Shown piece after piece: positions 51,263 to 57,545 of a stretch of DNA of 64,000 bases. The notes below the pieces were generated by a model. It was not told where the DNA came from. It did not search any database and was given only the letters and a program-made list of their open reading frames with translations. The stretch lies in contig NZ_BMXE01000007.1 in assembly GCF_014651595.1 (NCBI RefSeq), positions 1 to 64,000 on the forward strand. The letters run 5' to 3'. A program made the translations under genes and the position numbers. How positions within the stretch are numbered: position 1 is the first letter of the stretch; every line of letters begins with the position of its first letter. This DNA comes from Pseudovibrio japonicus. Lineage in GTDB: Bacteria > Pseudomonadota > Alphaproteobacteria > Rhizobiales > Stappiaceae.

Positions 51263-52348
51263 ATGAACAGACATTGCCCGGATGAAGCTTTACTAACCGC
51301 AAAGGAATGCGCCGACCGAACTGGCCTAAGTATCCGTGCGCTTCGGCTCTACGAGAAACATGGCTTAATCTCTCCTCGTCGCACGTCCAAACGTTGGCGT
51401 CTCTACGGAAACGATGACATCGCCCGACTGAATGAGATTCTGGCCCTTAAATCTATTGGGCTCAGTCTTCGAAGTATTTCGGGGCTTTTGTGTGATCAAC
51501 CCACCGATCTTGCTCAAACTCTTATTCTGCAGCGAGATGCTTTGATGGACACAAAACATCGGGCGGAGCGAGGGCTGACTGTGGTGGAAGCTTTGCAGGA
51601 CAAAATGCGTCTGGGAACTCCTGCAACGATTGATGATCTGATGACACTCATGAGGGAAACAAATATGGCTGAGCCGTCGAGAGATAACGTGGCCTGGCGT
51701 CGCTACGAGCAGATGCGCCCGCGAACCGAAATTGCAGTAGATCCTGCATTATATGATGATTATGCCGGAGCTTACGAAACAGATGATGGAACGTTCTCTA
51801 TCGTGTCCCATCGTGATGGGCGGATCTTCTACCGGATTGTTGGAGGGGCGGATAATGAGATCTTTCCGGAGACCGAGGCCAAATTCTTTATGAAGGTACT
51901 GCCTGTACAGATAACATTCGAGCGCGATGAAAGCCAAAAGGTGAAGTACTTAAAGCACCATCAAAGTGGCTTCGTGGATCAAGCACTTCGAGCTGACTTG
52001 AAGCAGGCATTGCAGATTGAAAAAGAGGATCAACATCGAATTAATGAGCAGAAGCCCATTCCCGGCGGAGCAACTCTGTTGTGCCGAGTGATCGAAGAGC
52101 TTTCGAAACGGGAACCTGACCTCAGTAAGATGGCGCCAGCAGTGGCGGAACTCTTGGAAGAGCAGAAAGGCTCCATTCAGGTACAGTTGGAGGAGGCAGG
52201 TAAACTAAAGCAGCTTTCATTCAAAGGCGTTTCCCAGAATGGCTCAGATGTTTATGATGCAGTCTTTGAGAATTCAAAAATCGAATGGAATTTTGCTCTC
52301 ACTCATAGGGGTTTGATGAGCTACCTATATTTTCGACCAATACTGTAA
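51263..52348 (+). CDS. MerR-family regulator with large C-terminal domain
   Basis: The 361-residue protein has the MerR winged helix (LLTAKECADRTGLSIRALRLYEKHGLISPRRTSKRWRLY, about 10-48) and a dimer helix (ILQRDALMDTKHRAERGLTVVEALQD). Residues ~165-240 hold a DUF3471-like beta domain (YAGAYETDDGTFSIVSHRDGRIFYRI), a module more common behind beta-lactamase-type domains. The last 90 residues are helical then strand-rich. The fusion is unusual. The start follows GAAGGAG. Targets are unknown, possibly its own gene and neighbours. Confidence 0.85.
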   Translation: MNRHCPDEALLTAKECADRTGLSIRALRLYEKHGLISPRRTSKRWRLYGNDDIARLNEILALKSIGLSLRSISGLLCDQPTDLAQTLILQRDALMDTKHRAERGLTVVEALQDKMRLGTPATIDDLMTLMRETNMAEPSRDNVAWRRYEQMRPRTEIAVDPALYDDYAGAYETDDGTFSIVSHRDGRIFYRIVGGADNEIFPETEAKFFMKVLPVQITFERDESQKVKYLKHHQSGFVDQALRADLKQALQIEKEDQHRINEQKPIPGGATLLCRVIEELSKREPDLSKMAPAVAELLEEQKGSIQVQLEEAGKLKQLSFKGVSQNGSDVYDAVFENSKIEWNFALTHRGLMSYLYFRPIL

Positions 52349-52357
52349 TTAGTCCCG

Positions 52358-52396
52358 ACCGATTGCCAGTTACCAAAGATGGTTCCGGCAATCGGT
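52358..52396 (+). terminator. Terminator of merR
   Basis: ACCGATTGCC and GGCAATCGGT pair perfectly around a 19-base loop; TTTTT lies about 7 bases later. It sits 10 bp after the merR stop. Confidence 0.75.
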
Positions 52397-53021
52397 TCGC
52401 TTCCTTTTTGGGCAGCCGTATGATCTTCTCAGAAAGTACCACTCTCCTCAAAGCGGCCTTGGATTCATTTGGGTTGCAAGCATCAATCGATCATAGAACC
52501 TGACGCCTGAGCATTAGAATGTGCCGATAAACAGCCTTCTCAGCGCAGTTTTGATCGAGTGTATACATGGTCACTGGGCCTGCTGGTGAAGTTGCTGCAA
52601 GTTTATCTACTCACTGCGAAAAAGTTATCAACCGTCGACGGAGGGCTGCTGTACGTTTGAAAAGGGAGGTAGGTGTATGTGCGTGCAATTTTCCTTCGGA
52701 TTTGCGAGATATATGGAGGAAAACTGCGTGAGTACGTCATGCCGAGCCATTTTCATTCTCTAATTTCATGTGATTTCCGCCCGCAACAGCGGAAATAAGC
52801 ATGCTCAATCAGCAGTACAGAAGAAACGATGTACTTTTATACTTAATATAGTCAATAAATATACTTTATGAAGCTTCCTGCTTAATCCTATACTTTTATA
52901 GATACTTTTTCTATGGAATATCACGTAGCAACGGGGAAGAATAGCCGCTTGACACACAACTGAATGTGGTTTCATATGACTGTGCTATCAGATGATATGC
53001 AGTAAAGATGAGGATTAGGCC
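52397..53021. promoter_or_regulatory. tna operon promoter region
   Basis: A 625-bp stretch without a gene. TTGACA (52949-52954) and TCATAT (52972-52977), 17 bp apart, are the likely -35 and -10 of the tna transcript, giving a start near 52984 and a short leader before the TnaC-like frame. AT-rich segments around 52820-52900 may hold other elements. I see no repeat in the rest. Confidence 0.55.
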
Positions 53022-53126
53022 ATGAGCCGGTCACTGCTGGTTCTTCAGTATCACAATAAAGAAAGCTTGGCATGGTATACGCAAGATGTTCGTCTTGCTT
53101 ATGACTTTCCTCGCATGTGCGTATAA
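53022..53126 (+). CDS. tnaC: TnaC-like tryptophan-sensing leader peptide
   Basis: A 34-codon frame lies 338 bp upstream of tnaA, behind GAGG 8 bases before its ATG. It has one Trp, and relative to it an Asp at +4 and a Pro at +12: W18, D22, P30 in WYTQDVRLAYDFP. E. coli TnaC has Trp12, Asp16 and Pro24 with exactly this spacing. As I recall the Proteus leader, it ends similarly after Leu-Ala-Phe-x-Phe-Pro. In TnaC, these residues let tryptophan stall the ribosome at the end of the leader and keep Rho off the mRNA. I infer the same control here; stalling would place Pro30 at the P site four codons before the stop, so details may differ. Confidence 0.7.
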   Translation: MSRSLLVLQYHNKESLAWYTQDVRLAYDFPRMCV

Positions 53127-53464
53127 GCCTACAGGCCCATCAGTCCCTTTGAAAATTAAATGAACGACGCTCAGTCTACTTGAAGCCATAGGGTAAGTGC
53201 ATCCAGCCTTGTGTTTTATTGGGCAGTTTTACTTGGCCTGTCGTGGACAGAAATCAGGTCGACTGCGTCATTCATTCAGTTTCGGTGACTGCTGCCGCAA
53301 CAAGTCAATTCCACATTCAAACGCCTGCAATTTCAGGCACTTGAAACTTTCGCGCCAATGGCTGGAGAGCGACCCAGCCTGTGTGCAGCTGCGTATTCCC
53401 AAAGGTGGGAACCGGTTGTTGGAAGAAGAATGCGCAGTAAATATAGTATGCAAGGACTAACACA
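53127..53464. promoter_or_regulatory. tnaC-tnaA leader region
   Basis: This 338-bp spacer separates the leader frame from tnaA, similar in size to the 220-bp E. coli spacer. It is pyrimidine-containing and has no strong hairpin, fitting Rho-dependent rather than intrinsic termination, but I cannot prove a rut site. A frame at 53197-53460 ends near tnaA and resembles no protein. Confidence 0.45.
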
Positions 53465-54865
53465 ATGAAACGTATCCCTGAGCCGTTCCGCATCAAAATG
53501 GTTGAGCCACTTAAGATGACGAACTTCGCGGACCGCGAGAAGGCATTGGCTGAGGCGGGCTACAACCCATTCCTGCTCAAGAGTGATGACGTTTACATCG
53601 ACCTTCTGACAGACTCTGGCACGGGCGCCATGTCTGACAAGCAGTGGGCCGGTATGATGTTGGGCGATGAAGCCTATGCCGGGTCCCGCAACTTCTACAA
53701 CCTAAAAGACGCCGTCTATCATTTCTTTCGGTATGAATACATGGTCCCAACGCACCAAGGGCGTGGCGCAGAACAGATCCTGTTTCCTGCTTTGATCCGC
53801 CGCGCCAGGGAAGTCCGCGGCGCTGACAAGCACATCTTCATTTCTAACTATCACTTCGACACCACAGCCGCTCACGTGGAGCTGAATGGTGGCCAGGCGA
53901 TCAACGTGGTGGATGAACGTGCCTACGACACAACCACCTACTACGACTGGAAGGGTGATTTCGATCTGGAGAAGTTGGAAGCTGTGATTGCAGAACATGG
54001 CGCCAAGAACGTCACTGCGATCATCACGACTGTGACTTGTAACAGCTCCGGCGGTCAGCCTGTCTCCATGGCAAACATGCGTGCAGTTTACGAGATCGGC
54101 CAGAAATACGACATTCCGGTTGTGATCGACTCTGCCCGTTACTGTGAGAACGCTTACTTCATAAAGCAGCGTGAGGAAGGCTACGCGGATAAGTCCATCA
54201 CTGAGATCATCCGTGAAATGTACTCCTACGGCGACATGCTCACCATGTCCGCAAAGAAAGACCCGCTGGTCAACATTGGCGGCATGTGTGCGATCCGTGA
54301 GAAAAAAGAGCTGTTCCAGGCGGTTCAGACCCTTTGCGTGCCGATGGAAGGTTTTGTCACCTATGGCGGTCTTGCAGGCCGTGATATGGAAGCGCTGGCC
54401 CGTGGTCTGCATGAAGGCGCAGACGAGGACTTCCTGCATTACCGCATCGGTCAGGTGAAGTATCTTGGTGATCGCCTTGTGGAAGGCGGCGTGCCGATAC
54501 AGTACCCAACCGGCGGTCATGCGGTGTTTGTAGATGCCAAGAAGATCATGCCGCATATCCCAGGTGATCAGTTTCCTGCGCAAGCCTTGTGTAACGCGCT
54601 CTATCTGGAATCTGGTGTGCGACCAGTTGAAATTGGTTCCTTCCTATTGGGCCGTGATCCTGCAACCGGAAAGCAGAAAGAGTCTCCGCTTGAACTGATG
54701 CGTCTGACGATTCCGCGCCGTGTCTACACCAACGATCACATGGACTACATCGCCGATGCGCTCATTAATGTGGCGAACAACGCAAAGGACATCAAAGGCT
54801 TCGAGTTTGAGTACGAGCCTCCCGTTCTGCGCCACTTCACCGCGCGTCTGAAGCCAATCAAATAG
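53465..54865 (+). CDS. tnaA: Tryptophanase
   Basis: The 466-residue PLP enzyme splits L-tryptophan into indole, pyruvate and ammonia through 2-aminoacrylate. It has the TnaA start ([15 protein letters not shown]) and [12 protein letters not shown] binds Lys265 ([12 protein letters not shown]) and [16 protein letters not shown] lines the cofactor. At the specificity site it has [18 protein letters not shown], as in tryptophanase, rather than the Arg of tyrosine phenol-lyase. A ribosome-binding AAGGA lies 8 bases upstream. It is followed by tnaB, pdxY and ridA, a full catabolic unit. Confidence 0.96.
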
Positions 54866-54945: not shown

Positions 54946-56223
54946 ATGTCTGAGGGTTTACAAGTGGATGGTTTAGTAAAGGCCACCGCAACATCCAGCC
55001 CCTCGTTTCTGGGTGGTGCGATGATTATCGCAGGAACCGCTGTCGGTGCTGGCATGTTTTCCGTTCCAACAGTCAGCGCTGGCATGTGGAGCATCTGGGC
55101 CATTTTCGCGCTGGCCTTTACCTGGTTCTGTATGCTGCATTCCGGTTTGATGATTTTGGAAACGAACCTGAATTATCCGGTCGGCTCCAGTTTTGACACC
55201 ATGGTCAAAGACACCCTTGGGACAGGGTGGAATACCGTCAACAATATCTCGGTCGGGTTTGTCGGCTATATTCTGTGTTATGCCTACATTTCCGGCGGCG
55301 GCTCTATCGTGGTTCACACACTGGATGCAACACTTGGGGTCGAGCTTCCGCAAATGCTGGCCGGGCTGATCTTTGCGTTGGGTCTGGCATTCTTCGTGTG
55401 GTGGTCTACCAAGGCTGTTGACCGCATCACAACGATCCTTCTGGGCGGTATGATCGTCACGTTCTTCATGTCCGTGACTGGTTACACCTTCAACATGAAG
55501 GCCGCGATTTTCTTTGATGCTGGCAGCGGTATGGGGCTGGCCAGCTACTTCCCGTATCTGTTTGCTGCACTCCCGTTCTGTCTGGCCTCCTTCGGTTATC
55601 ACCACAACGTGCCAAGCCTGATGAAGTACTATGGCAAGGAGCCAAGGAAGATATTGCTGTGCCTTGGTACAGGCACTTTCCTTGCACTGGTACTTTACAT
55701 TGTCTGGCTGTTCGCCACATTGGGCAACATCTCACGAGCTGATTTTGGTCCGATCATCGAGCAGGGCGGCAACATCGGCGTGCTGGTGGAAGCTCTTGGC
55801 CGGGCCGTGCAAAACGACTCCGCCTCCAACATGTTGTCCGCGTTTGGCAACATGGCGGTGGCCAGCTCCTTCCTGGGCGTTTCACTGGGACTGTTCGACT
55901 TTCTTGCCGACTTCCTGAAGTTTGATGACAGCACATCAGGTCGTGCGAAAACCGCTGCAGCGACCTTCGTTCCTCCGCTGATTGGTGGCGTCTTCTACCC
56001 GGATGGCTTCATCATTGCGATCGGGTACGCGGGCCTTGCTGCAACAATCTGGACTGCGATTGTTCCTGCCTTGATGGTTCGGGTCAGCCGCAAGAAATTC
56101 GGCAATCCCCGGTTCCGTGTCTGGGGTGGTGAAGCTCTTGTCTGGGTGATCTTTGGATTCGGTATCTTAGTTGCCGGAAGCCACCTCCTTGGAATGTTCG
56201 ACGCACTTCCAGTCTATCCATAA
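54946..56223 (+). CDS. tnaB: Tryptophan/aromatic amino acid permease
   Basis: The 425-residue transporter has eleven predicted membrane helices and the HAAAP-family start GGAMIIAGTAVGAGMFSVPTVSAGMW, followed by LILETNLNYPVGSSFDTMV and the family segment LPFCLASFGYHHNVPSLMKYYG. It matches TnaB and Mtr. It imports tryptophan with protons. It lies 80 bp after tnaA, with GGGAGAG before the ATG, so it is the second gene of the tna operon as in E. coli. Confidence 0.94.
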   Translation: MSEGLQVDGLVKATATSSPSFLGGAMIIAGTAVGAGMFSVPTVSAGMWSIWAIFALAFTWFCMLHSGLMILETNLNYPVGSSFDTMVKDTLGTGWNTVNNISVGFVGYILCYAYISGGGSIVVHTLDATLGVELPQMLAGLIFALGLAFFVWWSTKAVDRITTILLGGMIVTFFMSVTGYTFNMKAAIFFDAGSGMGLASYFPYLFAALPFCLASFGYHHNVPSLMKYYGKEPRKILLCLGTGTFLALVLYIVWLFATLGNISRADFGPIIEQGGNIGVLVEALGRAVQNDSASNMLSAFGNMAVASSFLGVSLGLFDFLADFLKFDDSTSGRAKTAAATFVPPLIGGVFYPDGFIIAIGYAGLAATIWTAIVPALMVRVSRKKFGNPRFRVWGGEALVWVIFGFGILVAGSHLLGMFDALPVYP

Positions 56224-56295: not shown

Positions 56296-57150
56296 ATGAA
56301 GGGCATACTCTCCATCCAATCCCACGTCACATACGGGCATGCCGGCAATGGTTGCGCGGTCTTTCCGATGCAGCGCATGGGGCATGAGGTATGGGACATC
56401 AACACGGTGCAATTTTCCAACCATACCCAGCACCCACAAGGTTGGACGGGGCAAGCCCATGCTGCGGACCATCTGAGCGAGATCTTTGAGGGGCTGGCGA
56501 AACTGGATGTGCTCTCTCACATCAATGGTATCGTAACCGGCTACCTAGGCGGTCCCTCGCACTGCGATGTGATTGTCGACATTGTGCAGGAAGTGCGCCG
56601 CCACAATCCCGATTGTCTCTACTTCTGTGATCCTGTGATGGGCGCGCCTGACAAAGGCTGCATCGTTAGTGAAGGGGTTGCCGAGCTTTTGGTGAGCAAG
56701 GTGATGCCGATTGCGGATGTGATTGTGCCCAACCAATTTGAACTCTCGCAATTTATCGGAGAACCAATCGAAACGCTGGAACAAGCTCAGGAAGCTTGCG
56801 ACAAGGCAATGGCAAAAGGGCCGAAGATGGTTCTTGCCAAGCACTTGCACAGCGTTTCGCAGGATGCCTTCACCATGATGTTTGCCAATGGCCAGGGAAG
56901 CCATCTGGCACAGCGCCCACACCTGCCGTTTGAGCGCCAGCCAGTCGGCGTAGGCGACCTGATCACATCTGTATTTGCCGCTGGTTATCTGAATGGACTT
57001 TCTGAAGTAGAAGCATTCGAGCACTGTAACAACGCGGTCTACGGCGTGCTCAAAGCCACGCAGGAAAAAGGCGAATGGGAGCTGCAAACAATTGCAGCAC
57101 AAGACGAATTCGTCTCACCAACTGAAAAGTTTGAACTAACAAGCCTATAA
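56296..57150 (+). CDS. pdxY: Pyridoxal kinase PdxY
   Basis: The 284-residue ribokinase-family enzyme phosphorylates pyridoxal to PLP, the cofactor of TnaA. Its start (MKGILSIQSHVTYGHAGNG) and its length (PdxY of E. coli is 287) fit. DPVMGAPDKGCIVSEG, the phosphate loop GVGDLITSVFAAGYLNG (with catalytic Asp) and YVPNQFEL-like VPNQFELSQFIG are present. Position after tnaB ties PLP supply to tryptophan breakdown. The ribosome-binding site is AAAGGAAA. Confidence 0.94.
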   Translation: MKGILSIQSHVTYGHAGNGCAVFPMQRMGHEVWDINTVQFSNHTQHPQGWTGQAHAADHLSEIFEGLAKLDVLSHINGIVTGYLGGPSHCDVIVDIVQEVRRHNPDCLYFCDPVMGAPDKGCIVSEGVAELLVSKVMPIADVIVPNQFELSQFIGEPIETLEQAQEACDKAMAKGPKMVLAKHLHSVSQDAFTMMFANGQGSHLAQRPHLPFERQPVGVGDLITSVFAAGYLNGLSEVEAFEHCNNAVYGVLKATQEKGEWELQTIAAQDEFVSPTEKFELTSL

Positions 57151-57164
57151 CAACAGGAGAAAAA

Positions 57165-57545
57165 ATGACTGCTATCGATACCTCCAAAGCCCCTGCAGCG
57201 ATTGGCCCGTATGTTCAGGGTGTAAACCTTGGCCAGATGATCATCACCTCCGGTCAGCTTCCAATCAACCCGGAAACTGGTGAGATGCCCGCAGATGTTG
57301 CCGACCAGACCCTTCAGTCTCTGAAGAATGGTTTGGCGATTGTTGAAGAAGCTGGCCTTGCTGCGAAGAACATCGTGAAAACAACCGTCTTCGTGAAAGA
57401 CCTCAACGATTTTGGCCGCGTAAACGAGGTTTACGGCAAGTTCTTTGAAGACAACAACGCTCCGTTCCCGGCGCGCTCCTGCGTGGAAGTTGCCCGTCTT
57501 CCAAAAGATGCGCTGGTTGAGATCGAAATGATCGCCTGCCCGTAA
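57165..57545 (+). CDS. ridA: RidA enamine/imine deaminase
   Basis: The 126-residue protein is a canonical RidA: APAAIGPYVQGVNLGQMIITSGQLP, TLQSLKNGLAIVEEAGLAAKNIVKTTVFVKDL, and the active-site Arg in FPARSCVEVARLPKDALVEIE. It hydrolyses 2-aminoacrylate to pyruvate and ammonia. Tryptophanase makes this compound, so its place in the tna operon is functionally apt. It lies 14 bp after pdxY behind ACAGGAG. The other RidA in this window (27460) is the more divergent of the two. Confidence 0.96.
   Translation: MTAIDTSKAPAAIGPYVQGVNLGQMIITSGQLPINPETGEMPADVADQTLQSLKNGLAIVEEAGLAAKNIVKTTVFVKDLNDFGRVNEVYGKFFEDNNAPFPARSCVEVARLPKDALVEIEMIACP

Follow-up and report, generated by a model that had tools for sequence, protein, structure and literature searches.

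The tryptophanase gene of Pseudovibrio japonicus is preceded by a short open reading frame which is very probably a genuine tnaC, its product being a leader peptide that would arrest the ribosome in response to tryptophan; the arrest itself is argued from work on E. coli and Proteus. The frame lies in a 64,000-nt stretch of this genome (the window), is conserved at the amino-acid level and stands before a tna operon whose tnaA is of gammaproteobacterial type. With it, a textbook metabolite-sensing arrest peptide is placed outside the gammaproteobacteria. No description of an alphaproteobacterial TnaC was found among the literature matches listed, which is a statement about those matches and not about everything in print. 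The features of the region are collected in Table 1.

Table 1. Features of the tna leader and operon in the window.
Feature	Positions	Strand	Basis
Putative -35 TTGACA of tna promoter	52949..52954	+	read by eye
Possible -10 TCATAT of tna promoter	52972-52977	+	alongside putative -35
Shine-Dalgarno GAGGA of tnaC	53010..53014	+	7 nt before ATG
tnaC leader peptide gene	53022..53126	+	translation, locus alignment, conservation in genus
Predicted arrest core W18-P30, WYTQDVRLAYDFP	53073..53111	+	conservation; E. coli equivalents
C-rich, G-poor stretch past tnaC stop, candidate Rho-loading site	53127..53160	+	composition
Small stem-loop GCCTGCAATTTCAGGC in spacer, no T-run	53323..53338	+	folding
tnaA, tryptophanase	53465..54865	+	Pfam PF01212 2.8e-87
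Tryptophan permease (Mtr/TnaB family)	54946..56223	+	NF007789 593.3 bits, cut-off 515; PF03222
Pyridoxal kinase pdxY	56296..57150	+	NF004398 354.5 bits, cut-off 292
RidA-family enamine/imine deaminase	57165..57545	+	TIGR00004 165.9 bits, cut-off 106.25

Translation of the frame gives MSRSLLVLQYHNKESLAWYTQDVRLAYDFPRMCV followed by a stop, a peptide of 34 codons within the range of 24–36 codons given for TnaC (PMC3902921). It contains a single Trp (W18, codon 53073–53075), with Asp22 at +4 (53085–53087) and Pro30 at +12 (53109–53111), and translating both peptides confirmed the initial annotation in its claim that this is the spacing of TnaC from the tnaCAB operon of E. coli K-12 (MNILHICVTSKWFNIDNKIVDHRP). 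Leu25 at W+7 and Tyr19 at W+1 are further TnaC features, each of the 16 alphaproteobacterial cores having Tyr or Phe at the latter position. Four residues follow Pro30. The frame has its own ribosome-binding site and lies directly upstream of tnaA; the clear site and the 338-bp spacer reported initially correspond to GAGGA 7 nt from the ATG and to 338 nt between tnaC and the tnaA start at 53465. Further upstream, the putative -35 block is conserved across 13 genomes of the genus (three of six columns invariant, mean pairwise identity 0.90), and a consensus promoter scan did not list this TTGACA. Curated models recognize the peptide in part. TIGR02616 aligns its residues 17–30 to model positions 9–22, reaching the exact C-terminal end, with 16.4 bits (E 0.0071) under a cut-off of 23.55, and there is no Pfam match (PF08053 is the TnaC model). 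When four gammaproteobacterial leaders were compared with Pfam, that of E. coli passed, those of Yersinia and Enterovibrio gave no match and that of Morganella reached 18.3 against 25. The cut-off of a curated model is treated here as a labelling threshold and not as a defining feature.

The spacing of the three key residues is by itself weak evidence, since three stop-bounded frames with W-x3-D-x7-P (start no more than 40 codons before W, at most 8 residues after P) occur in the 64-kb window, where 40 first-order Markov simulations gave 0.55 on average. The tighter pattern W[YF]xxDxx[LIM]xxxxP has a single occurrence in the window, and no simulation out of the 40 produced it. It is position and conservation that lift the frame above chance. 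The conservation set comprised 13 genomes of the genus, the window's own and 12 others, several of which share coordinates with named Pseudovibrio loci; for two loci (L108 and L111) the start picked by the script is an inner ATG in the alignment display.

Over these 13 genomes the frame is real and under strong selection as a peptide rather than as DNA. Twenty of the 39 columns of codons 18–30 are invariant, compared with 4 of 48 in codons 2–17, 2 of 15 in the tail with the stop codon and 5 of 314 in the spacer up to 53440 (1 of 60 columns directly behind the stop, 4 of 254 farther on), while the block spanning the Shine-Dalgarno sequence and ATG retains 7 of 15. Of the 13 core codons, 10 never vary at their first position, 9 at their second and 1 at its third, the one invariant third position being explained by the single codon for Trp, and pairwise codon differences among the 10 distinct core sequences number 151 synonymous and 93 non-synonymous. 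After Pro30 the residues are free, numbering 2–6 and varying in kind among Pseudovibrio leaders. Selection thus ends at Pro30 and leaves a variable tail, as expected if arrest happens there. In the tnaA upstream regions of relatives, a check set beforehand, the W/D/P pattern is kept in 13 of 13 loci of the Pseudovibrio genus and in 3 of 3 Tistrella-type loci, and the Leu-Ala-Tyr-x-Phe-Pro tail noted initially is kept as LAYDFP in the same proportions. The initial annotation had held that loss of the pattern amid conserved surrounding DNA would tell against it; the reverse is found, the core being kept and the flanks far less conserved. The threefold occurrence of the spacing in the window is what speaks for a chance frame, or a relic without function, an explanation contradicted by the codon-position pattern, by the invariance over 13 genomes and by a distribution that agrees exactly with that of tnaA over 16 genomes, and to be regarded as vanishingly improbable.

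The genes behind the leader run on the same strand in the order tnaC–tnaA–permease–pdxY–ridA. PdxY supplies PLP and RidA removes the 2-aminoacrylate intermediate, so that both fit a pathway of tryptophan degradation. Among NCBIfam models, tnaA scores 745 bits with NF009709, above the cut-off of 285, and 796.6 bits with TIGR02617, under the cut-off of 825.8. In each of the 10 named Pseudovibrio loci all four genes found a match, that of the permease covering only 240 residues in one locus (L001). The permease matches those of Morganella, Yersinia, Photorhabdus and Citrobacter at 56–61%; no match to permease, pdxY or ridA (E 1e-10) was found in a flank of up to 3 kb past tnaA of Vibrio, Photobacterium and Shewanella. 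Ahead of the tna leader, and in the same orientation, lies a gene (51263–52348) for a MerR-type regulator with a DUF3471 domain; it had no match (E 1e-10) in the flanks of the 10 named Pseudovibrio loci.

Within the core, W18, D22 and L25 are predicted to form the tryptophan-sensing part and F29 and P30 the stalling part. W18 and D22 of the nascent chain, together with 23S rRNA (746, 748 and 752:2609) and residue 90 of uL22, would provide a pocket for one free L-tryptophan, and its binding would arrest the ribosome with Pro30 in the P site and residue 31 not added. Since arrest at Pro30 blocks the addition of residue 31, this would be an arrest of elongation as in Proteus vulgaris, and not of termination as in E. 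coli. The stalled ribosome would cover the C-rich stretch past the stop so that Rho could not load, and with Rho kept off RNA polymerase would proceed into tnaA–permease–pdxY–ridA. When free tryptophan is lacking, the ribosome would finish and leave, and Rho would end transcription in the 338-nt spacer.

An older type of switch could also be read into a Trp codon placed in a leader peptide upstream of tryptophan-related genes, namely classical attenuation as in trp leaders, with the ribosome pausing at that codon when charged tRNA-Trp is scarce. Here there is only one such codon, conservation is centred on D22 and L25–P30 besides the Trp, no terminator-like site was found in 52350–53600, and inducing a degradative enzyme upon scarcity of its substrate tryptophan would be physiologically senseless. 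Attenuation at the Trp codon is rejected as extremely unlikely, in favour of arrest induced by free tryptophan.

How that arrest would be transmitted to the operon is less firmly grounded, and the Rho step taken alone is rated as reasonably likely. Rho-dependent control is established for the E. coli tna operon (PMC8429421, PMC12218461). A terminator scan of 52350–53600 listed no terminator-like site, and the sequence around the stop is richer in C than in G (28% and 17% in 53120–53179); C is also more frequent than G over the 40 nt behind the stop in 12 of 13 Pseudovibrio leaders, a count that reflects composition only and has no control. Both observations are weakly consistent with a Rho step. 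The arms CCTG...CAGG of the small stem-loop in the spacer (3' arm CAGG) are present in 9 of 13 alignment rows. Two matches to known RNA families in the leader (E 0.057 and 0.99) were far under the gathering scores and were dismissed. It is also conceivable that TnaC arrests with tryptophan and that the switch works through an RNA structure, or at the level of tnaA translation or stability, and not through Rho termination. The spacers are long and variable (255–380 nt), that of the window folds somewhat better than its shuffles (z -2.06, 2 of 100 as good), and Tistrella-type leaders have a GC hairpin 8 nt past the stop, their first 60 nt folding at -21 to -22 kcal/mol. Against this, no part of the leader is conserved less than the spacer (53187–53440, mean pairwise identity 0.55), the window leader holds no terminator-like hairpin, and the precedent of Rho-dependent control in E. 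coli points the other way, which makes a switch of this kind unlikely beside Rho termination.

The proposed pocket can be compared with that of E. coli. There, one L-tryptophan sits between A752:U2609 and Trp12 of TnaC; pseudouridine 746, G748 and uL22 Lys90 bind the ligand's backbone, the last through a salt bridge to the carboxylate, and TnaC Asn14 contacts A2058 (PMC8429421). The 23S rRNA was read in eight loci from relatives in the genus (10 of the 16 genus genomes had a 23S match; the window's own assembly had none). Positions 2058, 2059, 2062, 2503 and 2609 are as in E. coli in all eight, as are 746–753 and 788 in six, the other two being masked, and the contacts U746, G748, A752, A2058, A2059 and U2609 are identical to E. 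coli where readable. At position 2586 all eight loci have C where E. coli has U, which, like the differences in uL22 and at W+2 described below, counts against tryptophan-induced arrest. A G2058-type ribosome, which would speak against TnaC, was sought and not encountered, A2058 being present in every one of the eight loci.

It is uL22 that differs. Residue 90 is Arg in all eight TnaC-bearing alphaproteobacteria examined, the window's genome included (the five genus genomes examined, out of 16, and the three of Tistrella type, read by eye), and Lys in all nine gammaproteobacteria examined (E. coli and eight others). In E. coli the replacements K90H and K90W abolish the TnaC response and K90D reduces it (PMC8429421, PMC9045200). 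Position 90 is described as variable but mostly basic, with changes that abolish E. coli TnaC arrest, and which residue stands there reportedly decides on which ribosomes another arrest peptide, MifM, can act (PMC9045200). No paper joining K90R with TnaC was found in the library searched. On the peptide side, 12 of 13 Pseudovibrio leaders have Thr instead of Asn at W+2, that of genome G014 keeping Asn. Owing to Arg90 and this Thr, TnaC might respond differently on the alphaproteobacterial ribosome, with shifted tryptophan sensitivity, an altered ligand range or partly constitutive arrest. The Lys90 salt bridge and the Asn14–A2058 contact in E. coli, the separation of Arg90 from Lys90 between the two classes and the role reported for this residue with MifM all lean that way. 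Against this, Arg is positively charged like Lys, the core retains its Trp, Asp and Pro, and the Tistrella-type genomes and Pseudovibrio G014 have Arg90 together with Asn at W+2, so that neither change is tied to the other. A different response, which does not exclude tryptophan-induced arrest by a genuine TnaC, is considered possible and rather doubtful.

The distribution of the leader follows that of its operon. Of 16 genomes of the genus, 13 have this type of tnaA and the same 13 have TnaC; the other three have neither. Among the 397 genomes sampled from the order, none of the 16 listed for other genera of the same family gave a TnaA match, and in a class sample of 385 genomes TnaA was matched at 1e-60 in 10, the window's genome included. 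A TnaC profile run on these 385 genomes gave four strong matches (1e-16 to 2.7e-10, the next at 2e-3), in the window's genome and in three others (G048, G177 and G275), all beside tnaA of this type. The window's own and the Tistrella peptides are rows of the profile, which makes these matches circular in part, but not the lack of matches elsewhere. TnaC is thus rare in the alphaproteobacteria, with 4 of the 385 class genomes sampled. The initial proposal of a TnaC-like leader before an alphaproteobacterial tnaA is supported, with the addition that such leaders are rare in the class and that horizontal transfer is the simplest account. In 398 genomes of the phylum, five entries passed 1e-3: the window, three new loci and one seemingly spurious. 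The three new loci, which are not rows of the model, lie directly before tnaA-like frames that are 70, 56 and 55% identical. At one of these (L207, genome G1085) the leader is AWYTQDIRLAYDFPRR, with Thr at W+2 like most Pseudovibrio, and TnaA is 70% identical. The seemingly spurious entry, a weak match in a genome of the same order (G566, E 8.8e-4), lies in a 2.1-kb locus that matches no tnaA and was set aside.

Other alphaproteobacterial tnaA-like genes (at most 55% identity) generally lack such a leader, no W/D/P frame being found at 38 of 40 fetched loci (L096–L102 and L115–L147) in the upstream 900 nt at most, or 1500 nt for L115–L121. Both exceptions are paralogues in P. exalbescens-type genomes. 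These paralogous tnaA genes (L115 in G006 and L117 in G015), about 52% identical and with a permease of their own, have a second TnaC-like leader, WH[VI]DDxTVAYDFPA, about 670–680 nt upstream; it is missing at five other fetched loci of the paralogue, and the paralogue has no match in the window's genome. Bare DFP frames with no preceding W-x3-D at L099 and L138 were dismissed. Beyond the class, no W-x3-D frame of at least 12 residues was found within 1000 nt of tnaA in Variovorax (betaproteobacterial, 62% identity), Fusobacterium and a Vibrio europaeus plasmid. Two further tnaA genes came from a plasmid collection (L189 and L190): that of Vibrio sp. THAF190c, 57.6% identical, has an upstream frame WYTLDHQISFHLSSE that lacks the Pro, and that of Aeromonas caviae, 56.6% identical, an upstream frame WFTLDHKIAFFFPL with the Pro. 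No TnaC frame was found within 1000 nt (less at contig ends) in Microbulbifer (three loci) and Parendozoicomonas (together L015, L022, L049 and L072), although their TnaA proteins are 75–80% identical.

A TnaA tree was built from 69 rows chosen among 137 loci with a TnaA match, its root serving for drawing only and the Tistrella composition and several long branches being flagged. The 10 Pseudovibrio rows form one clade (100/99), which is joined at 99/97 to 30 gammaproteobacterial rows from Vibrionaceae, Shewanella, Microbulbifer and one MAG; Enterobacterales and Parendozoicomonas fall outside this group. Tistrella lies outside the 49 gammaproteobacterial and Pseudovibrio rows with modest support (88/88) and inside a 52-row group excluding E. 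coli (96/92), and the other alphaproteobacterial TnaA rows stand apart (99/95). Since Pseudovibrio TnaA is placed among gammaproteobacteria, leader and operon were probably acquired by horizontal transfer, and the sequences point to a lineage of marine gammaproteobacteria as their probable source.

It is attractive to consider TnaC as a portable sensor, a view held tentatively: TnaC and its operon would have crossed class borders, probably twice since Pseudovibrio and Tistrella are not grouped in the TnaA tree, and would read tryptophan through a different pocket (uL22 Arg90 for Lys), with a sensitivity or ligand range unlike that of E. coli and a naturally hypersensitive Phe-Pro end. With the core under selection and one residue of the host pocket changed from Lys to Arg, nature offers a test of how portable a sensor is between ribosomes, and such natural pairs make the share of the sensor that resides in the peptide, as against the ribosome, directly testable. 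Tryptophan-inducible production of indole is predicted for Pseudovibrio. Members of this genus are often associated with sponges and corals.

Among the gammaproteobacteria, the leaders of Shewanella, Enterovibrio and Photobacterium have near-identical cores (WYNCDIQLAYDFP, WYNNDIQLAYDFP and WYNQDFRLSHDFP) and differ in having Asn at W+2 where the window has Thr, in uL22, which carried Lys90 in all four genomes of this kind that were read, and in showing no match to permease, pdxY or ridA (E 1e-10) in up to 3 kb past tnaA. The named gammaproteobacterial loci are the 70 closest after Pseudovibrio (L011–L080), from the best 80 of 316 matches, and among them 32 of 33 Vibrio leaders keep W-x3-D but carry Lys at W+12 in place of the Pro that is essential in E. 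coli, one (L053) having no such frame. Their core is W[YF]N[LIV]D[YF]xLSL[LQ][SN]K and the leader type WYNLDYCLSLLSK, and Vibrio TnaC may, to judge from its sequence, stall differently or elsewhere. Many Vibrio leaders (L011–L065) carry TTTCCT immediately past the stop and, behind it, a short hairpin of the type GGTGC-ACTC-GCACC. The annotation of V. cholerae includes a tnaC (PMC4332508), and no discussion of the missing Pro was found among the literature matches listed.

The nearest counterpart within the class is Tistrella mobilis (order Geminicoccales), where a leader ending in KAWYNQDIVLAYDFPRA precedes tnaA on plasmid pTM3 and uL22 has Arg90, as in the window's genome. The Tistrella-type core WYNQDIVLAYDFP precedes tnaA in 3 of 3 alphaproteobacterial loci. 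The leader differs in a longer N-terminus, whose start is uncertain, and in a 176-nt spacer with a GC hairpin; TnaA is 66% identical. Genome G275 is T. mobilis, its contig matching pTM3 at 100% over 1749 bases, and G048 and G177 belong to the same genus group. Plasmid pTM3 (T. mobilis KA081020-065) is typed as conjugative, and the G177 locus lies on a 4.9-Mb contig, so a Tistrella-type locus is not always on that plasmid. At all three loci (L093–L095) the strong hairpin starts 8 nt past the tnaC stop and has no clear T-run, and a scan of L095 listed no terminator on the + strand. The downstream switch is possibly different from that of Pseudovibrio.

The TnaC of Proteus vulgaris, from a gammaproteobacterial host, has Leu at the position of I19, as in the window. 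It is said, in a 2009 paper, to arrest elongation rather than termination. The P. vulgaris peptide continues past the Pro, and outside the core its sequence differs from that of the window. Its key residues are W20, D24, L27 and P32 (PMC3902921). That other TnaC peptides also have a short tail, as the initial annotation remarked, proves to be ordinary: every leader listed except that of E. coli has 1–6 residues after W+12, and two further E. coli-like leaders end at the Pro.

With the best studied system, that of E. coli, the window shares a leader before tnaA and a permease gene, an aromatic residue at W+1 and Ile or Leu at W+7, the equivalent E. coli residues being W12, D16, I19, R23 and P24 (PMC3902921, PMC8429421, PMC10941005). 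The two differ in their ends, the E. coli peptide stopping at Pro24 with arrest of termination and the window peptide continuing for four residues, and in their spacers, 220 nt by annotation in E. coli and 338 nt in the window. Furthermore, the window peptide has Phe and Leu where E. coli has R23 and I19. In E. coli TnaC, I19L behaves like the wild type and is near neutral (PMC3902921), and R23F lowers the tryptophan needed about 30-fold, Phe being common at this position in homologues (PMC8429421). Phe and Leu at these two positions therefore predict a sensitive sensor in Pseudovibrio.
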